Shown here: positions 591 through 62,881 of the stretch, piece by piece
Layout: each line of letters opens with the position of its first letter
Numbering within the stretch: the stretch's first letter is position 1
Assembly (NCBI RefSeq): GCF_002934445.1
Contig: NZ_PTJE01000005.1
Span: 124,001-188,000, forward strand
Direction of reading: 5' to 3'
DNA length: 64,000 bases
Source: Nonlabens xylanidelens
GTDB lineage: Bacteria; Bacteroidota; Bacteroidia; Flavobacteriales; Flavobacteriaceae
The notes under the pieces: generated by a model
The model's input: only the letters and a program-made list of their open reading frames with translations
What the model was told of the DNA's origin: nothing
Databases searched by the model: none
Translations under genes and position numbers: made by a program

Positions 591-606
591 CGCTTTCGCG
601 AAAGCG
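591..606. repeat. CGCTTTCGCGAAAGCG palindrome, copy 1 (intergenic)
   Basis: Exact 16-bp perfect palindrome in the gap between the terminator and the convergent SDR gene. Confidence 0.9.
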
Positions 607-684
607 TAATCCGGTTATTTTATCACAACCTAATAGATAATTAAAACCATACCAGAAGTCTCTGTGATAATTACATTCCTAACT

Positions 685-1707
685 TTATTTCCAATCGGTT
701 TTCAAATATTTCAAAGCATCTTCCAAAGCTTCTCTTGATGATTTTGGGTTGTAACCTAATTCTTTTCTAGATTTACTAATATCATAATCTTGTTTTAAGC
801 CATAAAACATATCTACGTAATGTCTCATTAGTAAAGGTTCTTTTCCTGTCAACTTACTGCTAAATTCCATTAATCCAGCAACAGAATACAGTAGACATTT
901 TGGTACTTTTTTAGGTGTTTTTAGTTTTAGTTCAGGGTATAATTCTGATGCTATTTTTACTGTTTCTTGCATCGTAGTGTGATGTTCGTTGGATAAAATA
1001 TAACGTTCTCTATTTCTACCTTTTTGCATTGCTTGATAAGCACCAAAAGCAACGTCTTTTACATCCACCCAATTTAAAGTCATGTTTGTATCCACAGGAA
1101 TCTCTCCATTTAAAGCTTGGTGTACTAAATTATTACTATAACTTAATTTATGAGCTTCACTTCCTATCATAGCAGAAGGCAAAATTACAACGGTTCTGAT
1201 TCCGTATTTTTCACTCAATTCTAATGCTAATTTATCTGAATCATTTTTAGAGTTGTAATACCAGTTTCTTCTGTCTTTGTTATATCCATTGTCCACATTT
1301 GCTGGTAATTTTGTAAAATCCAAGCTAGCTACTGAACTTACATAAACAATGTTTTTAACACCACATTCTTTTGCCATTTGAAACACATTTTGTGTTCCTT
1401 GCATGTTGTTATTATAAATTTCCTCTTTTGGATTCTTAGCCCACATACTAAAGTTAGCAGCTACTGCGTATAAGTTGGTAACTCCTTGAAATGCTTTTTT
1501 AAGTGATGTTCTATCCATAAGATCTGCCTGTACCACTTCACAGTCTAACCCATTAAAAGGGTCAGTGTTATTTATGTTTCTTACAGTAGTTCTTACTTTT
1601 TGGTTTTCGGAAAGTAAAAGTCTAATTAGGTTGTTTCCTAAATGTCCATTTCCACCAGTTACTAATGAAATTTCTTCGCTCATAATTCTTGAATTTTGTT
1701 TAAACAA
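685..1707 (-). CDS. NAD-dependent epimerase/dehydratase-type reductase (extended SDR, dihydroflavonol reductase-like)
   Basis: A 340-residue Rossmann protein of the extended short-chain dehydrogenase family. The nucleotide-binding motif VTGGNGHLG is at residues 16-24, the catalytic Ser lies in VSSVA near 125, and the catalytic pair is Y150-x3-K154. Overall it resembles dihydroflavonol 4-reductase and 3-beta-HSD-like enzymes; the substrate cannot be read from sequence. The second Met (residue 9, coordinate 1683) begins SEEISLVTGG and is the more family-like start, so the first eight residues may not be translated. The tetranucleotide CTAG is much rarer here (2 in 1.0 kb) than in core genes of the window, which suggests acquisition. 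The next gene upstream on the same strand is a Crp-family regulator 37 bases away, so the two may be co-transcribed. Confidence 0.85.
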   Translation of the reverse strand: MFKQNSRIMSEEISLVTGGNGHLGNNLIRLLLSENQKVRTTVRNINNTDPFNGLDCEVVQADLMDRTSLKKAFQGVTNLYAVAANFSMWAKNPKEEIYNNNMQGTQNVFQMAKECGVKNIVYVSSVASLDFTKLPANVDNGYNKDRRNWYYNSKNDSDKLALELSEKYGIRTVVILPSAMIGSEAHKLSYSNNLVHQALNGEIPVDTNMTLNWVDVKDVAFGAYQAMQKGRNRERYILSNEHHTTMQETVKIASELYPELKLKTPKKVPKCLLYSVAGLMEFSSKLTGKEPLLMRHYVDMFYGLKQDYDISKSRKELGYNPKSSREALEDALKYLKTDWK

Positions 1708-1744
1708 ATTTCAATACCTCTCATGAGATTAAAAATAACATTTG

Positions 1745-2314
1745 TTAGAAAGTGATTTGTTTTCTAATACGGCTTAAAGATTGAGGTTCCATTCCTAGAA
1801 AAGAAGCGATATTATCAATAGATACATTCAAAGCTAATTTAGGAAACTGATTTACAAATTTTAGATAACGTTCTTTACCAGTTAAGGTTTGAAAATCTTT
1901 AACACGTTCTAATTTGCAACTTAAATGTTCGTTGGTTACTTCTTTGACAAAGATTGCCCAAAAATTTGTTTCCTTTTGTAAAATATCAAAATCAGGTTTC
2001 GATATTTTTAAGACTCTGGACTCGGTAATAGTTTCATAATAATCTAATGACGGTGTTTCTGTCATAAAACTATCTAAAGAGGTGAAAAGATCTTGTTCTG
2101 CTACAAGATGCTGCACAACTAGCTTTCCGTCAATATTTTGATATCCTTTTACAATTCCGGTGTCTAAGAAATAAATATACCGTTCCACTTTTCCTGCCTT
2201 TAATAGATTAGTTTTAGCTGAGACTTCTTCTGAAACAAAATATTTTTTGATTAGATCAATATCTTTTTGAGTTAAAAGAACTCTCGATTGTATGTAATTA
2301 ATTAGATTTTCCAT
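1745..2314 (-). CDS. Crp/Fnr family transcriptional regulator
   Basis: A 189-residue protein of normal family length. It has an N-terminal cyclic-nucleotide-binding-like beta barrel (about residues 20-125, with YIYFLDTGIVKGY and LVAEQDLF) and a short C-terminal helix-turn-helix (about 160-185, SIDNIASFLGMEPQSLSRIRK). Such proteins in Flavobacteria are usually one-component regulators of an adjacent gene, and the SDR reductase lies directly downstream on the same strand. The effector is unknown, and there is no Cys cluster of Fnr type. A nearly identical but truncated copy of its 5' end and leader lies about 1.5 kb away at 3706-3921. Confidence 0.9.
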   Translation of the reverse strand: MENLINYIQSRVLLTQKDIDLIKKYFVSEEVSAKTNLLKAGKVERYIYFLDTGIVKGYQNIDGKLVVQHLVAEQDLFTSLDSFMTETPSLDYYETITESRVLKISKPDFDILQKETNFWAIFVKEVTNEHLSCKLERVKDFQTLTGKERYLKFVNQFPKLALNVSIDNIASFLGMEPQSLSRIRKQITF

Positions 2315-2549
2315 TTTGTTTTGTATTTAATGGCAATAGCACAAGATGAGTGAGTTCAATTTACACTCTCTAAAAAATGACTAGATCACAAATCATACAA
2401 ATATTCCTTCTAGACGATTTTTCAAAAATAAACTAGTCTATAATCTATGCTCCATATTCTTTCTTATCATATCTAGAATCTAATCTCTTGATTCTTGACT
2501 CCCGTCTATTTTGTTATTTGTTTTTCTTCACCTTTTTTTGCCATTATCG

Positions 2550-2608
2550 TTACATAAGGTCGCAAAGGTAGTGGTTAAATAGGCAATTTTTTCTATTATC
2601 TTATGTAA
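2550..2608. promoter_or_regulatory. Widely spaced inverted repeat in the Crp/secreted-protein divergent region
   Basis: TTACATAAG (2550-2558) and CTTATGTAA (2600-2608) form a perfect 9-bp inverted repeat 41 bases apart. Between them, CAAAGGTA (2563-2570) reads as a TACCTTTG -7 box on the minus strand, pointing to the Crp-family gene but about 250 bases from its ATG. This could be an operator pair; no binding evidence is available. Confidence 0.35.
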
Positions 2609-3646: not shown

Positions 3647-3662
3647 CGCTTTCGCGAAAGCG
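3647..3662. repeat. CGCTTTCGCGAAAGCG palindrome, copy 2 (intergenic)
   Basis: Exact copy, extended to TCCGC...GCGGA (3645-3664). It lies between the hypothetical gene and the broken end of the Crp duplicate. Confidence 0.9.
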
Positions 3663-5123: not shown

Positions 5124-8100
5124 TTACTTTTTACCTAACCAAACACGAGCATTTACAAATGCTTCTAACCATGGTGTTACTTCGTCGTTCTTGCGGTCAG
5201 TAGGGTAGTGTGCCCAGTTCCATGAGAATGTAGATCGCTCTAGGTGTGGCATCATGACTAGGTGACGTCCATCTTCACTATTCAACATTGCTGCGTTATA
5301 GTCAGATCCATTAGGGTTTGCTGGATAACCTTCATAAGCATAGGTTGCAGGGATTTGGTAATCGCTGCGGTCTTTAGGTAACTGGAATTTACCTTCTCCG
5401 TGTGCTGCCCATATTCCTAGTTTGCTACCTTCTAGAGATTGTAGCATGATAGAATTGTTTTTGGCAATCTCTACACTTGTAAAGTTACACTCAAACTTAC
5501 CAGAATCATTATGTAACATCTTTGGCTTTACATCGTGATTTGGGTTAATTAATCCTAATTCTACAAATAGCTGGCAACCGTTACAAACACCTATACTCAT
5601 GGTGTCTGGTCTTGCAAAGAAGTTCTTTAAAGCCGTATTTGCTTTTTCATTATATAAGAATGCTCCAGCCCAACCTTTGGCACTTCCTAGTACATCACTG
5701 TTAGAGAATCCACCTACTGCGGCTATAAATTGAACATCTTCTAGCGTTTCACGACCAGCGATGAGGTCTGTCATGTGTACGTCTACAACTTCAAATCCTG
5801 CTAGGTACATGGCACGTGCCATTTCTCTTTCAGAATTACTTCCTTTTTCACGTATTACAGCAGCTTTTACTCGTTTTTGAGGTAATTCTGGTAATTCACC
5901 TGTGAAATGTGTAGGGAATTTAAATTCTAACGGCTGGTTTTTATAGTTTGCAAAACGCTCGTCTGCTTTACCATTAAAAGATTGTTTTCTATCTAATAAG
6001 TGAGAAGTTTGATACCACTCATCTCTCAATGCATTGATATCTAGTTCTAAGTCATTAATCGTTAAAAATGGTTGATCTGTAGCTTCACCTAGGTGATAGT
6101 ATTCAACATCTGCGGCTAGTAAGGCGCTTTCTACAGAGGTGTCTGTTACTTGTAAGATAACACCTGCATTTTCTGCAAATAATACTTTTACAAGATCTTC
6201 ATTTACGTTTTCTAGATCAATGTCCATTCCCACATTTTGAGAAGGGAAACACATTTCTAATAAACTAGTAATAAGTCCACCACTAGCAATATCATGTCCT
6301 GCAAGTACTTTTCCTTCTTTTATTAGATTTTGGATGGTTGTCCACGCTTTCGCGAAAGCGAAACTATCAACAATATCTGGGCACTCTGAACCTATTTTAT
6401 TTTGAGTTTGAGCAAAGCTAGAACCACCTAATTTATGGTCGTCACCACTCAAATTAATGTAATAAATAGGCGCTGAGGTGTTGCGCTGTAAAACAGGCTC
6501 TACTATATTACTGATGTTATCGCAAGAACCTACAGTACTTATAATCACCGTTCCAGGTGCAAGAACATCCATATCTGGATATTTTTGTTTCATAGAAAGA
6601 CTGTCTTTACCTGTAGGAATATTGATGCCTAGGTCTATGGCAAATTTACTTACCGCTTCTACAGCAGCGTATAAACGAGCGTCTTCTCCAGGGTTATTGC
6701 AAGGCCACATCCAGTTGGCACTTAAACTAACACCTTTAAGTCCTTTTTCTAAAGGAGCAAAAACGAGGTTAGTTAGCGACTCTGCAATAGCGTTGCGAGA
6801 ACCAGCCTCTGCATCTATTAATGCAGCAACAGGAGCGTGACCGATAGTGGTTGCTACTCCATTTTTACCGTTATAATCCATGGCCATTACACCTACGTTG
6901 TTTAACGGTAGTTGTAACTCGCCACAGGTCTGTTGTTTTGCAACGCGACCAGTAACGCATCGATCTACTTTATTTGTTAACCAGTCTTTACAGGCTACGG
7001 CTTCTAGCTGTAATACCTGAGAAATGTATTTTTTAATCTCACTTGCGTTATAAGTAACGGCGGCATACTTGCGTTCTATGGTTTTATCGTCCATGATAGT
7101 TTTAGGACTAGAACCGAACATGTCTTCTAGAGCAAGATCCATAGGACTGCGTCCATCTTTCTCGCTGAATGTGAATTTATTATCGCCAGTTACTTTACCG
7201 ACTTTATATAATGGTGAGCGCTCACGAGCTGCTATTTCTTCTAGGATAGGAGTGTCTTTTGCATCCATAACTAGTCCCATACGTTCTTGTGACTCGTTAC
7301 CTATCAACTCTTTACGAGATAGAGTAGGGTCTCCAGAAGGAAGTTTATCGGTATCGATAATACCACCAGTTTCTTCTACCAGTTCTGACAGGCAGTTTAA
7401 GTGTCCACCTGCACCATGATCATGAATAGATTTTATAGGGTTGTGCTCACTTTCTACTAGTCCACGTATGGCATTTGCAGCACGTTTTTGCATTTCTGGA
7501 TTAGAACGTTGCACGGCATTTAATTCTAGACCAGAGTCTAGTGCGCCAGTGTCTGCACTACTTACGGCAGCACCACCCATTCCTATTCTATAATTATCTC
7601 CACCCATAACGATGATGTCATCGCCAGCGTCTGGAGTTTTCTTTAAAGCTTGTTCTTTTTTTCCATAACCTATACCACCAGCTTGCATGATCACTTTATC
7701 AAAACCTAGATTTTGATCACCTTCTTGGTGCTCAAATGTCAATACAGATCCTGTGATTAATGGCTGTCCAAATTTATTTCCAAAATCACTCGCACCGTTG
7801 GATGCTTTGATAAGAATATCCATAGGTGTCTGATACAACCACTTACGTGCGTCAAAACCATTTTCCCATGGGCGTTCTTCATTTAATCTAGAGTAACTAG
7901 TCATGTAAACTGCTGTACCTGCTAGAGGTAGAGAACCCTGTCCACCTGCAAGTCTATCACGTATTTCTCCACCAGATCCTGTTGCAGCACCATTAAATGG
8001 CTCTACGGTAGTAGGGAAGTTGTGAGTTTCTGCCTTAAGAGATATTACAGAATCGAATAAACTCGTCTGATAGACATCTGGCTTGTTTGCTGTTTTAGGG

Positions 8101-8765
8101 GCAAATTGCTCTGCCTTAGGACCTTCTACAAATGCTACGTTATCAGAATAAGCACTTACTATATCGTTAGGGTTTTGTTTTGAAGTTTCCTTAATTAATT
8201 TAAATAAGGAAGTAGGCATCTCCTCACCATCGATAATAAAAGTACCGTTGAATATTTTATGACGACAGTGCTCAGAATTTACTTGTGAGAAACCAAATAC
8301 CTCACTGTCAGTTAATTTACGATCTAGTTTTTCTGAAAGAGCTATTAGATAATCGATTTCATCGTCGCTTAATGAGAGTCCTTCTTGCATATTATACGCA
8401 GCAATGTCATCTATTTCTAGAACACCTTGTGCTTGTACATTTACATCATATTGAGACTGGTCTAGTCCATCAAATTTTTGAAGTAACATTTTATCATAAG
8501 AAGAATCTTCTTCACATTTGTGAAATTCTTCAATACGTAAAATACCCTTAATTTCCATGTTTTGGGTAATTTCTACAGCATTTGTAGACCATGGAGTAAT
8601 GGTAGTCGCACGAGGTCCTGTGAAATGACCAGATAAAGTACTGGCATCTAGTTTAGGAGCATCGGCAAAAAGCCATTGTAATTTAAGATCATCTTCTGCA
8701 GAGATCGGTGCTTGGGTTTGAACTGCGTAAACTGACTTGGACGGATTTCCGTAAAAATGGATCAT
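5124..8765 (-). CDS. purL: Phosphoribosylformylglycinamidine synthase (FGAM synthase, large single-chain form)
   Basis: PurL converts FGAR, glutamine and ATP to FGAM in step four of purine biosynthesis (EC 6.3.5.3). At 1213 residues it is the long form that carries its own glutaminase, slightly shorter than the enterobacterial one. From the N-terminus come the PurS-like region, the linker, two AIRS-type ATP-binding halves (HSEHCRHK; GTGGEIRD-like GSGGEIRD) and a class I glutamine amidotransferase. The amidotransferase nucleophile is Cys1061 in GVCNGCQ, with His1174 and Glu1176 in MPHLERS. A copy of the dispersed palindrome is read in frame near residues 802-807 as FAFAKAW, in a loop/helix before the conserved LAGHDIASGG. 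It is monocistronic, with a -7 box 24 bases upstream and a strong terminator. Confidence 0.97.
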   Translation of the reverse strand: MIHFYGNPSKSVYAVQTQAPISAEDDLKLQWLFADAPKLDASTLSGHFTGPRATTITPWSTNAVEITQNMEIKGILRIEEFHKCEEDSSYDKMLLQKFDGLDQSQYDVNVQAQGVLEIDDIAAYNMQEGLSLSDDEIDYLIALSEKLDRKLTDSEVFGFSQVNSEHCRHKIFNGTFIIDGEEMPTSLFKLIKETSKQNPNDIVSAYSDNVAFVEGPKAEQFAPKTANKPDVYQTSLFDSVISLKAETHNFPTTVEPFNGAATGSGGEIRDRLAGGQGSLPLAGTAVYMTSYSRLNEERPWENGFDARKWLYQTPMDILIKASNGASDFGNKFGQPLITGSVLTFEHQEGDQNLGFDKVIMQAGGIGYGKKEQALKKTPDAGDDIIVMGGDNYRIGMGGAAVSSADTGALDSGLELNAVQRSNPEMQKRAANAIRGLVESEHNPIKSIHDHGAGGHLNCLSELVEETGGIIDTDKLPSGDPTLSRKELIGNESQERMGLVMDAKDTPILEEIAARERSPLYKVGKVTGDNKFTFSEKDGRSPMDLALEDMFGSSPKTIMDDKTIERKYAAVTYNASEIKKYISQVLQLEAVACKDWLTNKVDRCVTGRVAKQQTCGELQLPLNNVGVMAMDYNGKNGVATTIGHAPVAALIDAEAGSRNAIAESLTNLVFAPLEKGLKGVSLSANWMWPCNNPGEDARLYAAVEAVSKFAIDLGINIPTGKDSLSMKQKYPDMDVLAPGTVIISTVGSCDNISNIVEPVLQRNTSAPIYYINLSGDDHKLGGSSFAQTQNKIGSECPDIVDSFAFAKAWTTIQNLIKEGKVLAGHDIASGGLITSLLEMCFPSQNVGMDIDLENVNEDLVKVLFAENAGVILQVTDTSVESALLAADVEYYHLGEATDQPFLTINDLELDINALRDEWYQTSHLLDRKQSFNGKADERFANYKNQPLEFKFPTHFTGELPELPQKRVKAAVIREKGSNSEREMARAMYLAGFEVVDVHMTDLIAGRETLEDVQFIAAVGGFSNSDVLGSAKGWAGAFLYNEKANTALKNFFARPDTMSIGVCNGCQLFVELGLINPNHDVKPKMLHNDSGKFECNFTSVEIAKNNSIMLQSLEGSKLGIWAAHGEGKFQLPKDRSDYQIPATYAYEGYPANPNGSDYNAAMLNSEDGRHLVMMPHLERSTFSWNWAHYPTDRKNDEVTPWLEAFVNARVWLGKK
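6345..6360. repeat. CGCTTTCGCGAAAGCG palindrome, copy 3 (inside purL)
   Basis: Exact copy within the purL coding region, translated in the AFAKA frame (SFAFAKAWTT) around residue 804. The gene remains intact. Confidence 0.92.
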
Positions 8766-8825: not shown

Positions 8826-8841
8826 CGCTTGCGCGAAAACG
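8826..8841. repeat. Decayed copy of the dispersed palindrome
   Basis: CGCTTGCGCGAAAACG differs from the consensus at two positions, one in each arm, so the perfect symmetry is lost. It is intergenic, upstream of purL. Confidence 0.6.
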
Positions 8842-10171: not shown

Positions 10172-10187
10172 CGCTTTCGCGAAAGCG
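10172..10187. repeat. CGCTTTCGCGAAAGCG palindrome, copy 4 (intergenic)
   Basis: Exact copy between the PagL-like gene and the terminator of the endonuclease gene. Confidence 0.9.
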
Positions 10188-12694: not shown

Positions 12695-12710
12695 CGCTTT
12701 CGCGAAAGCG
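12695..12710. repeat. CGCTTTCGCGAAAGCG palindrome, copy 5 (intergenic)
   Basis: Exact copy in the divergent gap between the rRNA methyltransferase and the propeller lipoprotein. Confidence 0.9.
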
Positions 12711-16392: not shown

Positions 16393-16408
16393 CGCTTTCG
16401 CGAAAGCG
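16393..16408. repeat. CGCTTTCGCGAAAGCG palindrome, copy 6 (intergenic)
   Basis: Exact copy between the Dus gene and the radical SAM gene, close to the expected -33 region of the latter. Confidence 0.9.
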
Positions 16409-17487: not shown

Positions 17488-18369
17488 TTATTCCTCTTCG
17501 TCTATTTTGGGTAGGTTGTAGACTAAATCTTCTAGAGCAACCTTTTTTTCTATAATTCCTACTGCGGTAAATTCTTCTATAATCTTATCTACGGTACTTT
17601 CCCATAACTGGTCATCACTAAACTCTGTACGTAACAGCCATTGCTGTACATCACCTACTTGTAGGTCGTAATGTGATGCTATAGTGCGATCTATACTAGG
17701 TATGTGTTTAAAGTCTGATGTGTAGGTATTAATGATGTGAAGCATTTTTGCAAGTGCTTCTTCTTTTTCTGAAATACATTTTTCTGTCGCAGCGATTACA
17801 AAACTAGGCCATGGTGTGGCTATAGTTTCTAGGCGTTTAAAAACACCTTGATCTACTATGGGCTGTGTCATATAACGTTCCCATAGAAATAGTTGCGCTT
17901 TATTTGCACTTAAAGCTTCTACAGCGCCATCTAGTGTATTAATTAATTCAAATTCTATGTCTTCGGTATCCCAACCATGTCTTTTGGCTAGTAGATAACT
18001 CATTAAATGAGAGCCGCTTCCATAGCGACTTATGGCTATTTTACCATCTTCTAGTTGCTCTGTTCTATCTGCTTCTATATTACCAGGTGCATGCACGCCC
18101 CATAGTAGAGGAGAGGATACATATACTTGTAAAATACGCGACTTATTCCCAGCGATAATATCTTTTACGATTCCATCGGTTAGAATACAGGCTACGTCTA
18201 GTTGCTCTTCACGCAATAGTTTGCTCATGCGACCAGTTCCCTCTGGTACGTCTTGCCATTGTAGATCTATTCCCGCTTTCGCAAAAGCGTTATCCTCAAT
18301 TGCTAGGTGCCATGGCAAATTAAAATGCTCTGGTACACCGCCTATTTTTATGGTTATCTTTTTTTCCAT
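17488..18369 (-). CDS. Periplasmic-binding-protein-like domain protein without signal peptide
   Basis: A 293-residue protein with the fold signature of SsuA/THI5/NMT1-type solute-binding proteins: KIGGVPEHFNLPWHLAIED, FAKAGIDLQWQDVPEGTG, LLREEQLDVACILTDG, KIAISRYGSGSHLMSYLLAKRHGW. It starts directly with the first strand, with no signal peptide or lipobox, so it should stay in the cytoplasm. No transporter genes lie nearby. It may be a cytoplasmic sensor or an enzyme built on this fold, as THI5 is. The AFAKA in the N-terminal helix is encoded by a dispersed palindrome copy with one mismatch. It lies 25 bases after ppk1 on the same strand, and a -7 box in that gap could give it its own start. 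Confidence 0.75.
   Translation of the reverse strand: MEKKITIKIGGVPEHFNLPWHLAIEDNAFAKAGIDLQWQDVPEGTGRMSKLLREEQLDVACILTDGIVKDIIAGNKSRILQVYVSSPLLWGVHAPGNIEADRTEQLEDGKIAISRYGSGSHLMSYLLAKRHGWDTEDIEFELINTLDGAVEALSANKAQLFLWERYMTQPIVDQGVFKRLETIATPWPSFVIAATEKCISEKEEALAKMLHIINTYTSDFKHIPSIDRTIASHYDLQVGDVQQWLLRTEFSDDQLWESTVDKIIEEFTAVGIIEKKVALEDLVYNLPKIDEEE
18274..18289. repeat. Dispersed palindrome, copy 7 (one mismatch, coding)
   Basis: CGCTTTCGCAAAAGCG lies within the binding-protein-like gene and is translated in the AFAKA frame (DNAFAKAGID). The single change is synonymous (GCG to GCA equivalent on the coding strand). Confidence 0.8.
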
Positions 18370-20919: not shown

Positions 20920-21786
20920 TTAAGTAACAATAGAATCTAAAGTGAATTTAATTAGTTTCTCTACTAACTCTTTAGGCTTTGTAGAAAACTCACCAGTAGC
21001 TCTATTTGCAAGAATAGCATTTAAAGATACAGCTCTATGACCTAATAACTTTGACATGGCATATATACCAGCGGTTTCCATTTCTAGATTAGTTATTTTA
21101 TGTCCTTCAAAATTGAAGTCTGCAATGTGTTGATTCAAATCATTTTCTGCAGGTTGTAATCTTATTTTACGACTTTGTGGCCCATAAAATCCTACATTAG
21201 TAATGGTATTTCCATTAATCATCTCTACGGTCTGAAATTTCTTTGCAAGGTCTGCATCGCAGTTTACTATGTAAGGGGTAGAATGTAATTTTGATCGTGG
21301 AATTTGTTGGGTAACCGCTTTCGCAAAAGCGAGATCACCACCATCACTTTCATACCAGTGCATTAAACTATCAAAACCTATCCCGCGTTGTGATAATAAA
21401 AAGCTGTCTATGGGAATGTCACTTTGCACCGCTCCACTAGTTCCAACACGTATGATATCTAGAGATTTAAGCTCTTCTTTTACTTCTCTAGTTTTAAAAT
21501 CTACATTTACTAACGCATCTAACTCGTTAAAAACGATGTCTATATTATCCGTTCCTATACCGGTAGAAACCACGCTAATGCGTCTGTTTTTATAAACACC
21601 AGTATGGGTGTGAAACTCGCGTTTTCCTACTTTTAACTCTATAACGTCAAAGTATTTTGAGACTTCACTGACACGCTCTGGATCACCTACTGTGATTACT
21701 GTGTCTGCCAGTTGATGTGGTTTAAGATTTAAGTGATAGATGCTACCATCTGGATTTATGATAAGCTCTGAATTTGCTATAGGCAT
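20920..21786 (-). CDS. Nucleoside phosphorylase (uridine phosphorylase-like)
   Basis: A 288-residue cytoplasmic enzyme of the PNP/UDP family that cleaves nucleosides with phosphate. The phosphate-binding motif GDPERV is near residue 33, RVGTSGAVQ near 112, and the nucleoside-binding NLEMETAGIY near 234. Base specificity (uridine or purine) cannot be settled by eye, although uridine phosphorylase is the closest pattern. A dispersed palindrome copy encodes AFAKA at about residues 152-157, in a surface helix. Its ATG is 1 base downstream of the ridA-like stop, so the two form an operon. Confidence 0.88.
   Translation of the reverse strand: MPIANSELIINPDGSIYHLNLKPHQLADTVITVGDPERVSEVSKYFDVIELKVGKREFHTHTGVYKNRRISVVSTGIGTDNIDIVFNELDALVNVDFKTREVKEELKSLDIIRVGTSGAVQSDIPIDSFLLSQRGIGFDSLMHWYESDGGDLAFAKAVTQQIPRSKLHSTPYIVNCDADLAKKFQTVEMINGNTITNVGFYGPQSRKIRLQPAENDLNQHIADFNFEGHKITNLEMETAGIYAMSKLLGHRAVSLNAILANRATGEFSTKPKELVEKLIKFTLDSIVT
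21316..21331. repeat. Dispersed palindrome, copy 8 (one mismatch, coding)
   Basis: CGCTTTCGCAAAAGCG lies inside the nucleoside phosphorylase gene and is read as AFAKA (GDLAFAKAVTQ). It carries the same single change as copy 7. Confidence 0.8.
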
Positions 21787-23500: not shown

Positions 23501-23516
23501 TGCTTTCGCGAAAGCG
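23501..23516. repeat. Dispersed palindrome, copy 9 (one mismatch, intergenic)
   Basis: TGCTTTCGCGAAAGCG differs from the consensus only at the first base. It lies between gldI and the cyclophilin-FKBP gene. Confidence 0.8.
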
Positions 23517-25742: not shown

Positions 25743-25758
25743 CGCTTTCGCGAAAGCG
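25743..25758. repeat. CGCTTTCGCGAAAGCG palindrome, copy 10 (intergenic)
   Basis: Exact copy between the convergent ndk and maf genes. Confidence 0.9.
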
Positions 25759-27315: not shown

Positions 27316-27341
27316 GTGATTCCGCTCTATAGCGGAATCAC
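27316..27341. repeat. Hairpin GTGATTCCGCT-n4-AGCGGAATCAC, shortened relative of the dispersed palindrome
   Basis: A perfect 11-bp inverted repeat around CTAT. Its inner TTCCGCT/AGCGGAA arms equal the outer arms of the dispersed palindrome, but the TTCGCGAA centre is missing. It lies between the KdsC-like and UbiA-like genes of one operon, where it could act as an RNA-stabilising or attenuating hairpin. There is no T run. Confidence 0.65.
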
Positions 27342-27388: not shown

Positions 27389-27922
27389 TTAAGTAGATTT
27401 AACGCTTTTACCATCTTGTACGTTCCATTTACCTTGTACTTTCATGACTTGTTCTATGATGTCACGTACACAACTATCGCCACCATTTTTATGAGATATA
27501 TATTGACTTACCGCTTTTACTTCAGGAATTGCGTCTTGTGGACAACAGCCCACACCAGCAAATTCTAGTGCTGGAACATCGGGCATGTCGTCACCCATGT
27601 AGACTATGTTTTCAGGCTTTAAATTATGTTTTGCAACATATTCGTGCATTTGCACCATCTTATCACTGGCATTTAGAAAAACGTCTGTAACGCCTAGACC
27701 TACTAGTCTAGATTTTACACCTTCATTTCTACCGCCTGTAATAATACATACGTTAAATCCATTATTAAGAGCTGTTTTCATGGCATAGCCATCTCTTGCA
27801 TTCATGGTACGTAAAAGTTCTCCAGATTCAGAAATAAGCATGCGACCATCGGTAAGGACGCCGTCTACGTCTAGAATAAAAGTTGTGATATCGTGTAGTA
27901 ATTCTTTATAGCTAGTTGCCAT
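27389..27922 (-). CDS. KdsC-like HAD phosphatase (Kdo-8-phosphate phosphatase family)
   Basis: A 177-residue type C0 HAD phosphatase with no cap domain. The nucleophile motif is FILDVDGVLTDG, motif II lies in CIITGGRN, and motif IV is GDDMPDVPALEFAG. These match KdsC, which makes Kdo for lipopolysaccharide by dephosphorylating Kdo 8-phosphate. I start at the Met at 27922 (MATSYKELL), which overlaps the upstream DUF2520 gene by 11 bases. A longer frame to 27979 adds residues unlike the family. It is co-transcribed with the UbiA-like and Maf genes downstream. Confidence 0.85.
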   Translation of the reverse strand: MATSYKELLHDITTFILDVDGVLTDGRMLISESGELLRTMNARDGYAMKTALNNGFNVCIITGGRNEGVKSRLVGLGVTDVFLNASDKMVQMHEYVAKHNLKPENIVYMGDDMPDVPALEFAGVGCCPQDAIPEVKAVSQYISHKNGGDSCVRDIIEQVMKVQGKWNVQDGKSVKST

Positions 27923-28670
27923 GTGTTTTTTGTATGGAGTTAGTAATAGATCGGTACATATCGCGATCTTCATTATCAAGCATTTCTAAATGCTTTTCTA
28001 TAGTTTTTATGTCGTTTCTCATCGCTGGACCAGTCTGTGCCTTTTGAGGAGATAAATCTATTGCTTTAGCAAGTGTTTCTTGCATTAACGCGTTAAGCAA
28101 TTGTGTGTCTATCGCGGCATCTTGCATTATTTGGTCAGCCTTAGTATAACAGTGATTTACAAAGTTATTCATGTAAACAGCCGCTAGATGGAGCTTTTTA
28201 CGTTGATTAGAATTGATTTGTTCTCGCTTTCGCGAAAGCGTAACAGCCACCTGCTCTAACACATTATTTACAGCCTCACTGCTAGATTCTAAACATAAAG
28301 TAATGTCTTCAAAGTTAGGTTTTCTGGTCTTACTAAAGCTTTGTGGCATATAAAAAACGCCGTGATGTTCATGTTTTTCTAAGGCTGTAATGGATACACT
28401 ACCGCTGGTATGAGCTACAATAGCTTGTGAAGTAGGTAATAGGTTTGCTGTTTTATTTACGGCATCATCTGGTACTGCGAGTATAATAAGATCGCAAGCG
28501 GGCAAATTTTCTATTTGAGAAAGTAAAGGGGCTTTTATATCTGATAGCTTTTTTTGAGCTCTATTATAATATCCTACAAGAGAAATTTTATTTGATAAAG
28601 TAGCTTTTTCAAAGGCATGACATAAGTGCATTCCTACATTACCGGTTCCTATAATAATAATCTTAATCAT
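27912..28670 (-). CDS. Rossmann-like/DUF2520 domain protein
   Basis: A 252-residue protein. The N-terminal Rossmann domain has the NAD(P)-binding IIIIGTGNVGMHL and LIILAVPDDAV. The C-terminal helical DUF2520 domain includes KKLHLAAVYMNNFVNH. The layout resembles F420-dependent NADP reductases and pyrroline-carboxylate-reductase-like dehydrogenases; the substrate is unknown. A dispersed palindrome copy is read here in the LSRKR frame (VTLSRKREQIN, about residues 145-149), adding a basic patch just before DUF2520. It is the first gene of the four-gene operon, divergent from ccsBA. Confidence 0.85.
   Translation of the reverse strand: MIKIIIIGTGNVGMHLCHAFEKATLSNKISLVGYYNRAQKKLSDIKAPLLSQIENLPACDLIILAVPDDAVNKTANLLPTSQAIVAHTSGSVSITALEKHEHHGVFYMPQSFSKTRKPNFEDITLCLESSSEAVNNVLEQVAVTLSRKREQINSNQRKKLHLAAVYMNNFVNHCYTKADQIMQDAAIDTQLLNALMQETLAKAIDLSPQKAQTGPAMRNDIKTIEKHLEMLDNEDRDMYRSITNSIQKTHGN
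28225..28240. repeat. CGCTTTCGCGAAAGCG palindrome, copy 11 (inside DUF2520 gene)
   Basis: Exact copy translated in the LSRKR frame, one of only two coding copies that use this frame. Confidence 0.9.
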
Positions 28671-33454: not shown

Positions 33455-33474
33455 TTCCACTTTTGCGTAAGCAG
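33455..33474. repeat. Strongly decayed copy of the dispersed palindrome
   Basis: TTCCACTTTTGCGTAAGCAG is recognisable as the extended palindrome with several substitutions in both arms. It is intergenic. Confidence 0.4.
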
Positions 33475-35318: not shown

Positions 35319-35334
35319 CGCTTTCGCGAAAGCG
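35319..35334. repeat. CGCTTTCGCGAAAGCG palindrome, copy 12 (intergenic)
   Basis: Exact copy between the serine hydrolase and DUF937 genes. Confidence 0.9.
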
Positions 35335-39512: not shown

Positions 39513-40631
39513 TTAAGATAATGTCAACAAAAAATGAATCGTATCCACACCGTCTGCATAGTCTTGTAATCCAGGTGTTTGTGTAGAACCGAATTCTACT
39601 ATCTGTGGTGCAGTCAGTTCTCCTAACGAATTACTTACAGTACTGGCTGCTGGTCCAGATGCTACAACGCATTGTAACTTATCTGCATTTTCTTGAAACT
39701 CTGTCGCTAGGTCTTCTAAATTATCGTAATAACTATAGCCTAAACTAGCAATAGGAGAGGAGTAGCTGTCATTTTCTTCTTTGATTAATAAGAACTCGTT
39801 ATCTAATAAATCAAACTCGCTCATTAAATAAACGGCTTTGTTATAGTCGTAGTTATTTAGGTATTTTTCATTTTTAATAAGTTCTTTTCTAACGAACATG
39901 CCATTAAAAAACAGATCAAAATTATATCCTTTGGGCACTTTTAAATGACTCACACTTCTGCAACCTAGACCAAAATAAAGAAACACATCTTTACTAAGCG
40001 CTTCCATTTGTTCTAGTGTTTCATTTCCTGTTAAAACGGCAACACTATTTCTATTTTTACGTATGATATTAGGCTTTTTACCAAAATAATGTTCAAAGTA
40101 TCGAGCTGTATTATTACTTCCGGTAGCGATTACCGCGTCATAATTTTCTAATTTACCGTTTGCATAAGAGTAAGATGTAGCCAGTTCTGGACAGTAAGAA
40201 GTTGCTATTTCTAGTAATAAAGGAGTGAGTACGTCATCATTGCTAGAATTTTTAATCATCGCATGATGTCCTGAAATAATGACACATAAAACATCATGAA
40301 AACCTACTAGTGGTAAGTTACCAGCCGTAATAAGTGCTACATTTTTAGAGCTTATTTTTTCTAGCTCATAGGCTTGTGTCCAGTTAGTTAGATTCTCTAC
40401 GGTTAAGGCATTTGCCCATTCCTGAATGGAAAAATGTAAAGTGTCTTCTGTAAACCATGAGTTCTTACGTTCTGCTAGTTCCAGTCTTTGTTTTATGATA
40501 TCTTGCCAGCTTGCACCTGAGTCTGTGAGAGACTCTAGGGTACCTTTTAGGTAAGAAGATAGTTGGGATCCCGCTTTCGCGAAAGCGGAAATACGATCAT
40601 TTAACGTGGTATTTATTGACAATGTGTTCAC
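39513..40631 (-). CDS. LuxC-like acyl-CoA reductase
   Basis: A 372-residue protein of the aldehyde-dehydrogenase-like acyl-CoA reductase family (LuxC). It reduces acyl-CoA or acyl thioesters to aldehydes with NADPH. The acyl-accepting Cys224 is in YFGLGCRSVSHL. The nucleotide-binding part includes NVALITAGNLPLVGFHDVL and ATGSNNTARYF. The start is a GTG at 40631. A dispersed palindrome copy encodes AFAKA at residues 16-20 in the first helix. It is divergent from a ferredoxin gene with overlapping promoters. No lux genes are present, so the role is more likely fatty aldehyde or alcohol metabolism. Confidence 0.82.
   Translation of the reverse strand: MNTLSINTTLNDRISAFAKAGSQLSSYLKGTLESLTDSGASWQDIIKQRLELAERKNSWFTEDTLHFSIQEWANALTVENLTNWTQAYELEKISSKNVALITAGNLPLVGFHDVLCVIISGHHAMIKNSSNDDVLTPLLLEIATSYCPELATSYSYANGKLENYDAVIATGSNNTARYFEHYFGKKPNIIRKNRNSVAVLTGNETLEQMEALSKDVFLYFGLGCRSVSHLKVPKGYNFDLFFNGMFVRKELIKNEKYLNNYDYNKAVYLMSEFDLLDNEFLLIKEENDSYSSPIASLGYSYYDNLEDLATEFQENADKLQCVVASGPAASTVSNSLGELTAPQIVEFGSTQTPGLQDYADGVDTIHFLLTLS
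40572..40587. repeat. CGCTTTCGCGAAAGCG palindrome, copy 13 (inside acyl-CoA reductase gene)
   Basis: Exact copy translated as AFAKA at residues 16-20 (ISAFAKAGSQL). Confidence 0.92.
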
Positions 40632-45437: not shown

Positions 45438-47564
45438 TTATTCTTCTGGCATCAATAATCCTAAAATATCAATTGCTGCCTCACTAATTTTAGTTCCAGG
45501 GCCGAAGACTGCGGCTACTCCAGCATCAAAGAGAAACTGATAATCTTTTCTCGGTATAACGCCACCAACTACTATCATGATGTCCTCACGGCCATATTTA
45601 TTAAGCTCTTCCATTACTTGCGGCACAAGTGTTTTGTGACCTGCTGCAAGAGAAGAAACACCCAAAACGTGTACATCGTTTTCTACGGCTTGTTTAGCTG
45701 CTTCTGCTGGTGTTTGAAACAATGGACCTATATCTACGTCAAAACCTACATCTGCATAACCAGTAGCGACTACTTTGGCGCCTCGATCGTGTCCGTCTTG
45801 TCCCATTTTTGCGATCATTATTCTAGGTCTACGTCCTTCGATTTTGGCAAATTGGTCTGCTAGTTGTTGCGCTTTCGCGAAAGCGGAATCATTCATAATC
45901 TCTTTCTTATATACTCCTTGTACACTTTTTATAGTCGCTCTATAACGACCGTAAACCTCTTCTAAAGCATCTGAAATTTCGCCTAGTGTAGCTCGTTCTC
46001 TTGCCGCATTTACAGCAAGTTCTAGTAAATTACCTTCTTTAGTTCTAGCGCAATTTGTCAGCGCTTTTAAAGCTTTTTCTACTTTTTGAGTGTCTCTCGT
46101 GGCTTTAATATCGGTTAACCTATCGATTTGCTCAATACGTACTGCGGCGTTATCTACCTCTAGAGTGTCTATGTTATCCTCGTCTGGGCTAGGATATTTA
46201 TTCACTCCTACAATGGTATCTATTCCAGAATCTATACGTGCTTGTTTCTTTGCAGCGGCTTCTTCTATGCGCATTTTAGGAATTCCTGCCTCTATGGCTT
46301 TGGTCATTCCACCTAGTTCTTCTACTTCTTCAATAAGTTCCCAAGCCTTATCAGCAATTTGATCTGTAAGGGATTCTACATAATAAGAACCTGCCCATGG
46401 ATCTACGGTTTTTGTAATACCAGTTTCTTCTTGTAAAAATAACTGTGTATTTCTAGCTATACGTGCACTGAAATCCGTAGGTAAAGCAATTGCCTCATCG
46501 AGTGCATTAGTATGTAAACTTTGTGTACCACCGAATGCGGCTGCACTAGCCTCAATAGCAGTTCTAGCCACGTTGTTAAATGGATCTTGCTCTGTAAGTG
46601 ACCAACCAGATGTCTGACAGTGTGTTCTTAATGCAAGAGATTTGGCATTTTTAGGCTTAAATTGTTTGATCATTTTTGCCCAAAGCATACGTGCTGCACG
46701 CATTTTGGCAATTTCCATGAAATGATTCATTCCTATTGCCCAAAAGAAAGATAGGCGAGGAGCAAAGGTATCGATGTCCATTCCTGCAGCTAGTCCTTTG
46801 CGTACATATTCTAGACCATCTGCAAGTGTGTAGGCTAGTTCTATATCACTAGTCGCGCCTGCTTCATACATGTGGTAACCAGATATAGAAATCGAGTTGA
46901 ACTTAGGCATGTGTTTACTTGTGTACTCAAAAATATCTGAGATAATTTGCATACTAGGAGTAGGCGGATAGATATAGGTGTTACGTACCATGAATTCTTT
47001 AAGAATATCATTTTGTATCGTACCACTCAACAGTTTTTGATCCACACCTTGTTCCATTGCTGCAACTATGTAGAATGCCATGATAGGTAAAACCGCACCA
47101 TTCATGGTCATAGAAACCGACATTTTATCTAGCGGAATAGAGTCAAAAAGGATTTTCATATCCTCAACACTATCTATGGCAACACCTGCTTTTCCTACAT
47201 CACCTACCACACGATCGTGGTCACTGTCATAACCTCTATGCGTTGCCAGGTCAAAGGCTACAGAAAGTCCTTTCTGTCCAGCAGCGAGATTACGTTTATA
47301 AAAAGCATTAGATTCTGTCGCACTAGAAAAACCTGCATACTGTCTTACTGTCCAAGGTCTACGCACGTACATAGTAGAATAAGGTCCACGCAAGTTGGGT
47401 GCTATACCAGCTACAAAATCGAGATGTTCCAGATTTTCAACATCTTCTTTTGTGTATTCTTTTTTTATAGAAATCCCTTCAGATGTTTCATAAACAGCGG
47501 TTTCTGATCGCTTAGTATGAAAATCGTAGTTAGGTTTTATGTTGGAGATGTCTTTTCTACTCAT
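45438..47564 (-). CDS. mutB: Methylmalonyl-CoA mutase, large (catalytic) subunit
   Basis: The enzyme interconverts succinyl-CoA and methylmalonyl-CoA with adenosylcobalamin (EC 5.4.99.2). The 708-residue subunit has the TIM-barrel catalytic domain ([58 protein letters not shown]). It also has the C-terminal B12 domain with the axial ligand His592 in [10 protein letters not shown] and [13 protein letters not shown] dispersed palindrome copy encodes AFAKA at about residues 560-565, in the linker before the B12 domain. Its ATG overlaps the upstream lipoprotein stop by 8 bases (ATGAGTAG). Last gene of the operon. Confidence 0.96.
45870..45885. repeat. CGCTTTCGCGAAAGCG palindrome, copy 14 (inside mutB)
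   Basis: Exact copy translated as SAFAKAQQL in the linker between the catalytic and B12 domains. Confidence 0.92.
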
Positions 47565-48021: not shown

Positions 48022-48562
48022 TTTTGAGTCTTATCAAAGTTACTTGCGCATTTTCTTGTTTTCCATCACTTATGGATTGCAGCGTCATGTTATCTTTATC
48101 TATTTCTATAATTTGAAACTTTACCAATGGTTTCATATCTTGATTAGAATTAGGGTTTCTTAGGAAAAGTTGTAGCTCTTTATCTTTACTAATATTATAA
48201 AATCTGGCTTGTGGCCAGGTTCTGAATTCGCTTGAAATGGTCAATTCTCTTTTTAGTTGAAATTGATACACATCTGTTTCATGGAAATGAGTTTTTATGA
48301 GTCCTTCATTTCCTCTTCTTGGAATGTTTATGATGCCTTCTTGAGAGTCCACATGTATAATGCTGGTTACTTTCCAGTTACCAATAAGTGTTTCGTCGGG
48401 ACTTTGAGGGTTACAAGAAGTCATTATCAAAAACATAAAAAGAAACACTATGTTCCAAAGGGCAGCATTAATTCTCCCTTTTGGAAATAAAAAATCACAG
48501 GTATCTATAGGTGCGGACTTAAGTCCGCATCTGTGAATACATATTTGTGAGTTAAAAGACAT
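48014..48562 (-). CDS. Small lipoprotein between mutA and mutB (first of pair)
   Basis: A 182-residue protein with a lipoprotein signal ending LIMTSC (Cys at about 50) after an unusually long N-terminal extension. The mature domain opens LIGNWKVTSIIHV, like its downstream neighbour. The extension ([21 protein letters not shown]) is encoded by palindromic element B. The ATG shares its first base with the mutA stop (TAATG), which supports this start through translational coupling. No later ATG precedes the signal, except within its hydrophobic core. Function is unknown; its place inside a mutase operon suggests insertion rather than a role in the enzyme. Confidence 0.65.
   Translation of the reverse strand: MSFNSQICIHRCGLKSAPIDTCDFLFPKGRINAALWNIVFLFMFLIMTSCNPQSPDETLIGNWKVTSIIHVDSQEGIINIPRRGNEGLIKTHFHETDVYQFQLKRELTISSEFRTWPQARFYNISKDKELQLFLRNPNSNQDMKPLVKFQIIEIDKDNMTLQSISDGKQENAQVTLIRLKNE
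48453..48537. repeat. Composite palindromic element B (imperfect copy of A)
   Basis: GTGCGGACTTAAGTCCGCAT (48511-48530) is the core, with arms that pair further through G-T wobbles. The second hairpin, TTCCAAAGGG with CCCTTTTGGAA (48453-48486), is centred on the same ATTAATT as in element A. The order and spacing match A. Confidence 0.8.
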
Positions 48563-49941
48563 TACAACTTCTTGATTTCACTCTTTTCCAGCTCTTCTGT
48601 AATTCTTTTGGTAACGATAGGTTGGATCAATGTTTTACGAGGCTCAATTTTTCTAAAAGGTAATATTTCGTACTCTTTTTGTAAAGGTAATGCCGCATTA
48701 GGATGCTTATTTGCTCCTATAAGAACACGTTTTCCTGTATTGAAATCTTCTTGCTCTTGTTGTGCACTTTCCTTGATCTTACGCTGTATAGTGCCATCAA
48801 AAAGGGACTGTGTAAAACCACCTGCGTTCTCTATATCTTTAAAAATGTCAAGTGCTTTTTCTACCAGTTGCTTGGTAATGGTATCAATGTAGTAAGAACC
48901 GTCAGCTGCATTTCCTATTTGATTAAGATAAGCCTCATCTTTTAGAATTCTCAACTGATTGCGTGCTATGCGATCTCCAAATTCATTTTCTTTGTTAAAA
49001 AATGTATCATATGGAATGTTGCATAAAGTGTCTGCACCACCTAAAATTGCGCTCATACACTCGGTAGTTGTGCGCAGCATGTTCACATTATAATCCATTA
49101 AGGATTTATTGCGCAGGCTAGGAGTTGCCGTAATATAACAACCTAAATCGATTGCGTAAACATCTCCCAAAGTTTTGGTTAAAATGCGATAGGCACGATA
49201 TTTTGCGATCTCAAAAAAGTAATTGCTACCTATAACCGTGTCTATGTTGATTCTTTTTCCCGCTTTCGCGAAAGCGGATAGCGTACCACCTTCATTTAAA
49301 TGATTTAAATACTCGTTAAGATGAGCTGTAAAATAAGCTAGTTCTTGAGTAATGGTAGCACCAGCTTGTTGATAGGTAGATGTGTTAATAGTGATATTTG
49401 AGAAATAGCCATCAAACTTATCAAGAAATGAATCTAAGTTTTTATAATCATGATTTTTATTCTTAAACCAGTTTCCATCACTCGCTAATTGATGAATGAT
49501 ATCTATGTGAACATAAGCATGCGGTGCAATTTGATGAATGGATTTTATATAATCCAGGTCAAAAAATTGAGTGTGAATCTGTACACCTACTTTAGGTAGA
49601 TCTTTAAACAATAGAGTAGGATCTATGCTAGGATTAGGAATGATAAATATAATTCCTTCACCACCACGATTTAATATATCTAGAGCTTTTTTATTTGCAG
49701 CTGCAGCATTACCAGCATATACTTTTTGAGATATATACCAGTCATTAGTCTGTGTAGAACGATTAGTGATATTAATATCTGGCGCACTCTCGCTATGATA
49801 AAAAGGCTTTATATGAATACCTTCTCTGGTAGCGGTAATAAGAGTTTCATTATAGTCTGCACCTTTAAGGTCCATCTGGATTTTCTGTTTCCACTGTGCT
49901 TCAGAAACAGCATCAAAATCTTTAAAAAGTTCTTTACTCAT
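48562..49941 (-). CDS. mutA: Methylmalonyl-CoA mutase, small subunit
   Basis: A 459-residue partner of MutB. It has the mutase barrel fold (YNETLITATREGIHIKPFYH, SNYFFEIAKYRAYRIL, GGADTLCNIPYD, RIARNQLRILKDEAYLNQIGNAADGSYYID) but lacks the B12-binding domain, as usual for small subunits. It begins with the start overlapping the ftsB-like gene by 8 bases. A dispersed palindrome copy is read as SAFAKAGKRINID near residue 224. It is separated from mutB by two small lipoprotein genes, unlike the usual direct mutA-mutB order. Confidence 0.93.
   Translation of the reverse strand: MSKELFKDFDAVSEAQWKQKIQMDLKGADYNETLITATREGIHIKPFYHSESAPDINITNRSTQTNDWYISQKVYAGNAAAANKKALDILNRGGEGIIFIIPNPSIDPTLLFKDLPKVGVQIHTQFFDLDYIKSIHQIAPHAYVHIDIIHQLASDGNWFKNKNHDYKNLDSFLDKFDGYFSNITINTSTYQQAGATITQELAYFTAHLNEYLNHLNEGGTLSAFAKAGKRINIDTVIGSNYFFEIAKYRAYRILTKTLGDVYAIDLGCYITATPSLRNKSLMDYNVNMLRTTTECMSAILGGADTLCNIPYDTFFNKENEFGDRIARNQLRILKDEAYLNQIGNAADGSYYIDTITKQLVEKALDIFKDIENAGGFTQSLFDGTIQRKIKESAQQEQEDFNTGKRVLIGANKHPNAALPLQKEYEILPFRKIEPRKTLIQPIVTKRITEELEKSEIKKL
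49261..49276. repeat. CGCTTTCGCGAAAGCG palindrome, copy 15 (inside mutA)
   Basis: Exact copy translated as AFAKA just before the conserved INIDTVIGSNYFF segment. Confidence 0.92.
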
Positions 49942-55276: not shown

Positions 55277-55292
55277 CGCTTTCGCGAAAGCG
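55277..55292. repeat. CGCTTTCGCGAAAGCG palindrome, copy 16 (intergenic)
   Basis: Exact copy, extended to TTCCGC...GCGGAA, between convergent genes. It may double as a terminator hairpin, but no T run follows. Confidence 0.9.
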
Positions 55293-61581: not shown

Positions 61582-61585
61582 GTTG

Positions 61586-62881
61586 TTGAAAAAGCCTGTA
61601 TTGATTATAAGTTATTACTGGCCTCCAGCAGGTGGACCAGGTGTGCAACGATGGTTAAAGTTTGCAAAATACCTACCTGAAAATGGGTATGACGTAACCG
61701 TTGTTGTTCCTGAAAATCCAGATTATCCTGTCTTGGACACTTCTCTTATGGAAGAAGTTCCTAAATCTATTCATCTCATAAAGGTTAAAATTAAAGAGCC
61801 TAGTAGGATGGCAGGTAAGCTTTCGCGAAAGCGTACTAAAAACCTACAACGCGGTATTTTAAAGAAAGACGCTGGCATTTTAGAACGTGCTATGGTGTGG
61901 ATGCGTGGTAATTTATTTGTTCCAGATGCACGAGTAGGATGGAAACACCGTGTTCTAAAAGATATAGAGCCTTATTTAACAAATAATCCTACAGCTACTG
62001 TTATTACTACAGGACCGCCGCATTCTGTGCATTTAATAGGTTTAGAATTAAAGTCTCTTGTGCCTTCTGTAAAATGGCTGGCAGACTTCCGTGATCCATG
62101 GACCACTATAGGTTATCATAAAGATCTTAAATTAGGTAAACGTGCACAAAAACGTCATGTAGATTTAGAAAAAGAGGTGTTAAACACTGCAGATTTATTA
62201 ATAGTAACTAGCCCGCATACAGGTAAAGAATTTAAAAGTAAAACATCACGACCTATACAGTTGATTACAAACGGATTTGATATCTTACCTAATATGCAGA
62301 TGCGACAGCCAGAAGGTAAATTTGTACTATCTCACATAGGTACTTTATTATCAGATCGCAATCCGCAATTATTATGGGAATCATTACAGGAATTATGTAA
62401 AGAATCAACCGATTTTGCTGCAGATTTTCAATTACAATTGGCTGGTAATATAAGTGATGAAATTCTAGAGAGCCTTACTTATTTTAAATTAGATACTTAT
62501 GTAGATAATAAAGGTTATGTGTCTCATGAAGAGTCTGTTGCGCTTATGTTTAAAGCTCAAGCCTTGTTGCTTATAGAAATAAACTCTGAAGAGACTAAAG
62601 CGATTTTACCAGGTAAGATATTTGAATATTTTGCGAGTCGCAGACCTATCATTGCAATAGGACCTAAAGAGGCAGATATAGAGCTGTTAATAACAGATAC
62701 ACATTCTGGGGAATTCTTTAATTACCAGCAAAAAACGGCTCTTAAGAAACACATTATCCATCTATATGATCTCTATAAAAAGGGAACTAATGATGGAAAC
62801 TCTAACGATTTAATAGATCGATATAAAAGATCTTATTTAACTAAAATCCTTGCTAAAACCATAGACTACGTATGGGAATAG
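61586..62881 (+). CDS. Glycosyltransferase (GT4-like, GT-B fold)
   Basis: A 431-residue cytoplasmic enzyme. The N-terminal acceptor domain opens VLIISYYWPPAGGPGVQRWLKF, and the C-terminal donor domain has LSHIGTLLSDRNPQLLWESL and KIFEYFASRRPIIAIGPKEADIE. The start is a TTG: two in a row at 61583 and 61586, with MKKPVLIISYYW from the second preferred. A dispersed palindrome copy with one mismatch gives KLSRKRTKN at about residues 78-83, adding a basic loop. Its start is 4 bases after YfhO and its end overlaps the flippase gene by 10 bases, so the three are one operon. Confidence 0.88.
   Translation: MKKPVLIISYYWPPAGGPGVQRWLKFAKYLPENGYDVTVVVPENPDYPVLDTSLMEEVPKSIHLIKVKIKEPSRMAGKLSRKRTKNLQRGILKKDAGILERAMVWMRGNLFVPDARVGWKHRVLKDIEPYLTNNPTATVITTGPPHSVHLIGLELKSLVPSVKWLADFRDPWTTIGYHKDLKLGKRAQKRHVDLEKEVLNTADLLIVTSPHTGKEFKSKTSRPIQLITNGFDILPNMQMRQPEGKFVLSHIGTLLSDRNPQLLWESLQELCKESTDFAADFQLQLAGNISDEILESLTYFKLDTYVDNKGYVSHEESVALMFKAQALLLIEINSEETKAILPGKIFEYFASRRPIIAIGPKEADIELLITDTHSGEFFNYQQKTALKKHIIHLYDLYKKGTNDGNSNDLIDRYKRSYLTKILAKTIDYVWE
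61818..61833. repeat. Dispersed palindrome, copy 17 (one mismatch, coding)
   Basis: AGCTTTCGCGAAAGCG lies inside the glycosyltransferase gene and is read in the LSRKR frame. Confidence 0.82.

Follow-up and report, generated by a model that had tools for sequence, protein, structure and literature searches.

Published uptake sequences are described, in passages of PMC7811141, as originating by point mutation, as scarce in newly acquired segments and as relatively evenly distributed, the uptake signal sequences (USS) of Haemophilus being among those reported there to evolve by point mutation, and part of PMC3630211 adds that the dialects of such sequences follow phylogeny and that allowing one mismatch adds 21% to the copies of kingDUS. 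Among over-represented palindromes, highly iterated palindrome 1 (HIP1) of cyanobacteria is linked to DNA methyltransferases in sections of PMC4390886. Here, a 64,000-nucleotide stretch of the genome of Nonlabens xylanidelens (contig NZ_PTJE01000005.1, positions 124,001 to 188,000; hereafter the window) was found to contain a 16 bp palindrome, CGCTTTCGCGAAAGCG, in 13 exact, four one-mismatch and one two-mismatch copies. This palindrome could work like a DNA uptake or self-recognition sequence kept by biased recombination, a tentative preference that falls somewhat short of probable.

The 13 exact and four one-mismatch copies listed by the first-pass annotation were all recovered where it had placed them. 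Its three additional 'decayed' copies fared unequally, with that at 8826 standing at two mismatches, that at 33455 proving weak (best match four mismatches, at 33458) and that at 27316 finding no support (best match six mismatches). Positions 27316-27339 hold a separate short inverted repeat, TTCCGCT...AGCGGAA, which has another centre and only the arms in common with the main palindrome. That a 16-mer of this abundance exceeds chance was borne out, as none of 100 dinucleotide shuffles of the window contained any copy and the 3.28 Mb genome contains 579 exact copies, against zero for the reversed-pattern control and a chance expectation of 0.00005 to 0.44 per genome (Markov orders 1-5, fitted on 400 kb). 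The own-genome statistics below were drawn from 400 kb of contig 1 together with the window, and genes were called with a simple longest-open-reading-frame (ORF) caller, such that genic and intergenic counts are approximate. The 400 kb sample contained 75 exact, 21 one-mismatch, six two-mismatch and two three-mismatch copies, indicating a sharp core, and a strong genome-wide excess of a near-exact motif of this kind is one of the features by which uptake sequences are recognised. Literature text searches found neither the 16-mer nor shorter or overlapping strings in any paper and the entries listed by context searches contained nothing on it, the claim of absence being limited to these searches; a blastn search with a 42-base site consensus against phage and plasmid collections returned chance-level matches only.

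Counting in relatives, which the first-pass annotation had proposed, revealed a concentration of the site in three genera. Each of the other 22 Nonlabens genomes had exact copies (180-737), which were absent from 16 genomes of other genera in the same search, and overall the carriers comprise 23/23 Nonlabens genomes, 18/18 Dokdonia genomes searched and one single-genome genus (G226), with hundreds of copies each. Across 299 genomes of the family, 38 had any copy of the 16-mer: three of the own genus, the Dokdonia genome G242 with 630, G226 with 153, two genomes of genus g91 with 12 and 13, one g66 genome with 11, and the remaining 30 with one to four each. The 14-base core, GCTTTCGCGAAAGC, occurs 369-905 times in each of the 18 Dokdonia genomes and 408 times in G226. 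Copy number differs between congeners, with 355, 422 and 737 exact copies in genomes of 3.7-3.9 Mb. A tree built from two proteins of 16 genomes placed Dokdonia and G226 as sisters with support 100 and gave the split of non-carriers from Nonlabens, Dokdonia and G226 a support of only 61, a topology that is compatible with, and no proof of, a single origin of the site in the carriers. There do not appear to be dialects based on other palindromes, at least at the threshold used in 16 samples of 20 kb from 16 other genera (the samples from G044, 1.3 kb, and G046, 2.5 kb, being left out), some of which had other repeats.

The repeated unit extends to approximately 50 bp, consisting of a core of 14-16 bp and a degenerate 17 bp arm on each side, with approximately 4.4 bits of information per arm across 213 pooled exact copies from Nonlabens. 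In these copies T is strongest at arm positions -2, -3, -6, -9 and -12, and C is scarce, at 2-8%, at all positions from -3 to -17 except -13 (15%). Genic and intergenic copies share much the same arm profile, and a similar one was found in a Dokdonia genome, in which the core-adjacent base is A where three Nonlabens genomes mostly have C or T, a small dialect at the genus level. The arms had been described as often extending to TTCCGC...GCGGAA, which holds for at least one side (7/13 exact copies in the window and 43/75 in the 400 kb) and fails for both sides together (2/13 and 7/75). Bases at symmetric arm positions are complementary at roughly the frequency expected of independent arms, i.e. 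without covariation, and a hairpin or cruciform was rejected on this basis. The lack of covariation instead suggests a duplex site with two half-sites that are read separately, most simply by a dimer. The centre, TTTC..GAAA, presumably resembles the Noc-binding site (NBS) and parS. The same anatomy, with its two-fold symmetry, the information content of its arms, their likeness within and between genes and their independence, would also suit a putative dimeric nucleoid-organising or chromosome-maintenance protein that binds sites every few kilobases, the spacing being kept by selection; this architectural explanation is possible, if on the doubtful side.

Copies within genes were used to follow how the site arises and persists. 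Genic copies occur in all three codon frames (30 read AFAKA, 16 RFRES and 11 LSRKR; n=57, window plus 400 kb). In the gene for a DNA polymerase III alpha-type protein (DnaE), all six Nonlabens genomes have RFRES and the exact DNA, and ten genomes of other genera align without gaps. The exact copy at 28225..28240, which reads LSRKR in a DUF2520-type gene (27912-28670, minus strand) and is also exact in the relative G002, is exact in four of six Nonlabens genomes and has one mismatch in a fifth, with 12 genomes of other genera aligning ungapped; the sixth, G014, is without this site, and another exact copy there lies in a stretch that is absent or different in 17 other sequences. In the methylmalonyl-CoA mutase gene (45438-47564, minus strand, 708 amino acids), the copy at 45870..45885, reading AFAKA, is exact in 7/11 Nonlabens genomes (the own genome included) and in Dokdonia G242, with one mismatch in two Nonlabens and two mismatches in another two, and three genomes without the site align ungapped (same-strand rows only). 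Among 17 named records, the closest to this mutase gene came from an uncultured Nonlabens, at 92.2%. All three genes therefore point to origin by point mutation rather than insertion, as expected of uptake sequences, the one G014 copy being an exception, and the ungapped differences at the site would most simply represent gains. Codons at the site were also effectively frozen in two genes: in DnaE they were identical in 6/6 columns, compared with 11.8% of amino-acid-invariant columns, and in the mutase in 3/4 compared with 5.8% across 11 Nonlabens genomes (5/5 compared with 7.8% over eight genomes selected for an exact copy, a figure that is biased by this selection).

These alignments bear most directly on the proposal that the site is a mobile palindrome spread by a transposase, in the manner of repetitive extragenic palindromes (REP) or miniature inverted-repeat transposable elements (MITE). 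High copy number, palindromy and the G014 copy are in keeping with it, and the ungapped alignment of three genes with relatives that do not have the site, the even spacing and the non-covarying arms are contrary to it, leaving such mobility very improbable. An insertion element was rejected on the ungapped outgroups in the three genes, that G014 copy excepted.

The placement of copies shows indifference to gene orientation. Of 96 copies with at most one mismatch in the 400 kb, 49 lie within genes and 47 between them, an approximately five-fold enrichment per base between genes, and per-base density is equal across divergent (14 in 11.7 kb), convergent (eight in 7.1 kb) and co-directional (25 in 21.2 kb) gaps. 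Convergent gaps are richer in the window alone, where they hold 4/17 copies in 1.6 kb, namely the exact copies at 591..606, 3647..3662, 25743..25758 and 55277..55292 (the last also exact in G002). The intergenic enrichment and this convergent excess would be expected of a transcription terminator, RNA element or transcription-factor site, an explanation that nonetheless appears scarcely credible given the equal density across gap types and the 49 copies inside genes, as well as the absence of a T-run after the palindrome, a 3' arm that is A/C-rich and G-poor, and the lack of any Rfam match at gathering score in the window. The other intergenic copies of the window are exact at 10172..10187, 16393..16408 and 35319..35334 (co-directional, the third exact in G002) and at 12695..12710 (divergent), with one mismatch at 23501..23516 (co-directional) and with two mismatches at 8826..8841 (between ORFs, degenerate in G002 too). 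The remaining genic copies comprise exact copies reading AFAKA at 6345..6360 in an FGAR-amidotransferase (purL-type) gene (5124-8765, minus strand; exact in G002), at 40572..40587 in the gene at 39513-40631 (minus strand; exact in G002) and at 49261..49276 in a second mutase-family gene (48562-49941, minus strand; changed in G002), one-mismatch copies reading AFAKA at 18274..18289 and 21316..21331 in the genes at 17488-18369 and 20920-21786 (both minus strand), and a one-mismatch copy reading LSRKR at 61818..61833 in the ORF at 61583-62881 (plus strand); no strand is assigned to any copy in the window.

Spacing between copies is significantly even, and the earlier description of 'no clustering' thus understated the pattern. 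None of the 95 gaps between copies with at most one mismatch in the 400 kb was shorter than 1,250 bp, compared with 26.7 expected and a minimum of 15 in 5,000 simulations that preserved genic and intergenic shares, and the coefficient of variation (CV) was 0.47 compared with 1.03 simulated; adding two-mismatch copies gave one such gap in 101. No gap of this size was found among 32 in G004, and gaps under 1,000 bp among the first 100 copies numbered four in G349 (22.7 expected) and zero in G226 (12.5 expected). Relatively even spacing is a property of uptake sequences, although the evenness here is stricter than published opinion on DNA uptake enhancing sequences (DUES) suggests. It is also what an architectural protein would require, as is the uniform distribution along the one-contig, 3.9 Mb chromosome of G002, where 20 evenly placed 20-kb samples revealed no gradient (72 exact copies, mean 3.6, variance 2.8; terminus unmapped). 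With the terminus unmapped, this flat distribution may speak against sites of the Noc, SlmA or MatP type, which are biased to the origin or terminus, and organisers known to be site-specific are biased to the terminus and have many fewer sites, about 70 for Noc and 24-52 for SlmA in the portion of PMC4726725 consulted, which together with the varying copy number among congeners tells against an architectural role.

A third possibility is a recombination or repair hotspot comparable to Chi, acting in both directions through its palindromy. Chi sites are short (5-8 bases) and directional. The density of the palindrome is near that of E. coli Chi (68 sites in 250 kb), and yet Chi given the same treatment was randomly spaced (CV 1.02, 19/67 short gaps) where the palindrome is even, and a symmetric 50 bp footprint would be ill-suited to a reader of one unwound strand. 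A Chi-like role is consequently regarded as unlikely, even if absence from two phages, described next, would be in its favour.

Two Nonlabens phages, totalling 71 kb, contain no copy at up to three mismatches and one at four, where 18 would be expected at up to two mismatches. The annotation of phages P12024S and P12024L lists no integrase, and we take both to be lytic. A 20-kb stretch with nonribosomal peptide synthetase (NRPS) genes in G002 (L143, 195-215 kb) was likewise without sites. Under-representation in newly acquired DNA is a feature of uptake sequences, but some phages and one imported block approach host density. This block accounts for 25 of the 26 matches (at most two mismatches; reversed-pattern control one) in the non-carrier genome G112, where it occupies 78 kb of contig 3 (32-110 kb) and is sharply bounded, the rest of the genome having one weak match; six of its proteins were scanned and include RND efflux, heavy-metal P-type ATPase and restriction-modification-type proteins. 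Fewer of the copies are intact in three non-carrier genomes, with exact shares of 12/25 in the G112 block, 13/29 in G322 and 11/26 in G087 compared with 75/102 at home (p = 0.018, 0.006 and 0.004, respectively, for sites that are partly shared and not independent). Such an excess of mutated copies is as expected if sites decay where they are not maintained, imperfect arrival also being possible. Seven site-bearing proteins scanned from other genera comprised efflux pumps, an outer-membrane efflux protein, a P-type ATPase, two DUF4138 proteins, which are presumably of conjugation type, and a FUR-family protein, and, where metal-efflux or conjugation-type genes of other genera contain copies, these may be a sign that the DNA has passed through Nonlabens or Dokdonia. 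The RND pump and outer-membrane efflux genes of several genera have the same in-gene sites (L029, L031, L033, L036, L038, L039 and L040), and in a 405-amino-acid protein encoded at these efflux-gene loci AFAKA is located close to where the N-terminal signal-like stretch ends.

The motif was also present in 41 viral stretches, of which seven, each with a single copy and a GC content above 0.5, may have no relation to the site. These contigs were chosen by the presence of the motif and are uninformative on average phages; nine viral loci were examined and the proteins of seven were scanned. Phage contigs L101, L118, L086, L111, L090 and L094 carry the motif, some at common spacings, the integrase-bearing L086 with four exact copies in 18.5 kb and L090, which has Mu-type transposition genes, with one in 12.2 kb. 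Such phages probably infect carriers.

Candidate machinery was compared across 15 carriers and 17 other genomes. A ComEC-family protein was found in 31/32 genomes, including all 15 carriers, and being nearly everywhere does not discriminate the carriers. ParB-family proteins numbered one in 14/15 carriers, two in G014 and one to three in the 17 others, and the helix-turn-helix region was alike in five carriers and two non-carriers; a ParB paralogue or altered ParB as reader was therefore rejected, as neither feature is carrier-specific, and the want of a site-associated ParB-family protein also counts against an architectural role. Canonical parS was not found in the DNA examined, including near parB of non-carriers, such that nothing was concluded from parS.

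Taken as an uptake or self-recognition mark, the site would be maintained as follows. A two-fold symmetric site of about 50 bp would be recognised by a dimeric protein that binds double-stranded DNA, and site-bearing DNA would be preferentially taken up or recombined. Sites born by point mutation would then spread by biased transfer (molecular drive), the endpoint being own DNA with one site every few kilobases, and the machinery would be something other than the conserved type IV pilus. That a protein reads the site, that this reader is dimeric and that uptake or recombination, rather than a structural role, maintains the site are each suggested by the sequence comparisons. The uptake-like interpretation is drawn from point-mutation origin, scarcity in new segments, even spread and dialects, all as published for uptake sequences, and the presence of copies in all three codon frames also fits it. 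Should it be correct, Bacteroidota would have to possess a DNA-recognition machine not yet described, and the site would be, to our knowledge, the first such DNA-sequence mark beyond Neisseriaceae and Pasteurellaceae as well as the first to be palindromic.

Several observations weigh against this interpretation. DNA uptake sequences have a monomeric pilin receptor and a non-palindromic motif, and the site is palindromic. T2SSF, the platform family of type IV pili and type II secretion and the one pilus family searched, was present in only 4/15 carriers (2/8 Nonlabens, 2/6 Dokdonia and 0/1 of the third genus) compared with 2/17 others, so that the type IV pilus machine usual for uptake was not evident in most carriers. 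The stretches encoding T2SSF (L242-L244, L251-L253 and L254) are themselves site-poorer, with five exact copies in 46.8 kb of G000, three in 60 kb of G004 and none in 20 kb of G337, which may reflect recent acquisition. Spacing is looser elsewhere, with gaps under 1,250 bp making up 4/100 in G002 and 3/28 in G242. The 41 motif-bearing viral stretches argue against a simple division of self from foreign, as do phages with integrase or structural genes near host density (four exact copies in 18.5 kb, six in 27.9 kb), and the entries listed by literature searches included no report of competence in Nonlabens or Dokdonia. Published uptake sequences are, in the sections of PMC1939737 consulted, not palindromes and less even than expected of chromosome-compacting sequences, and the strong evenness of the site also favours the architectural alternative. 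A Flavobacteriales uptake machine of another kind may nevertheless exist, as the example of Riemerella suggests, for which part of PMC7965970 reports self-preferring DNA uptake and names no receptor.

A cytoplasmic organiser accounts at least as well for the symmetry, the evenness and the site-bearing phages, and the absence of the T4P/T2SS (type IV pilus/type II secretion system) platform protein from 11/15 carriers and the near-host density in some phages and the imported block are in its favour. If the role were structural, there would be many more sites than for the organisers compared here. Chromosome-wide anchoring in Bacteroidota, with a putative dimeric protein on hundreds of evenly spaced 50 bp sites, is conceivable without being the likelier outcome; with roughly one in two sampled copies being genic, it would mean that the site has reshaped many proteins starting from the DNA. 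The first-pass annotation had offered HIP1, uptake sequences and architecture without choosing between them; the uptake analogy fits most of the testable points, HIP1 proper has another sequence and architecture is still tenable. Palindromy and the presence of T2SSF in only 4/15 carriers, i.e. departures from two usual features of the family, are the reasons the site was not filed as a DNA uptake sequence.

Compared with known systems, the site is like Haemophilus USS and Neisseria DNA uptake sequences (DUS) in its very many near-exact copies, relatively even and both genic and intergenic, and, going by parts of PMC7811141, PMC3630211 and PMC1939737, in its point-mutation origin, lower frequency in new DNA and clade dialects, and it is unlike them in that its 14-16 bp core is a palindrome flanked by symmetric arms and in that a type IV pilus platform gene is not detectable in most carriers. 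As with cyanobacterial HIP1 (GCGATCGC), a palindrome is over-represented across the genomes of a clade with its role unsettled (sections of PMC4390886), although the sequence is different and the site twice as long. The sites of Noc (NBS), SlmA (SlmA-binding site, SBS) and MatP are likewise palindromic chromosomal protein sites, from which it differs in having far more copies, no gradient seen and no site-associated ParB-family protein. Finally, it shares with Chi a similar density and absence from two phages, whereas Chi is short, directional and random in the E. coli sample and the present site is long, palindromic and evenly spaced.

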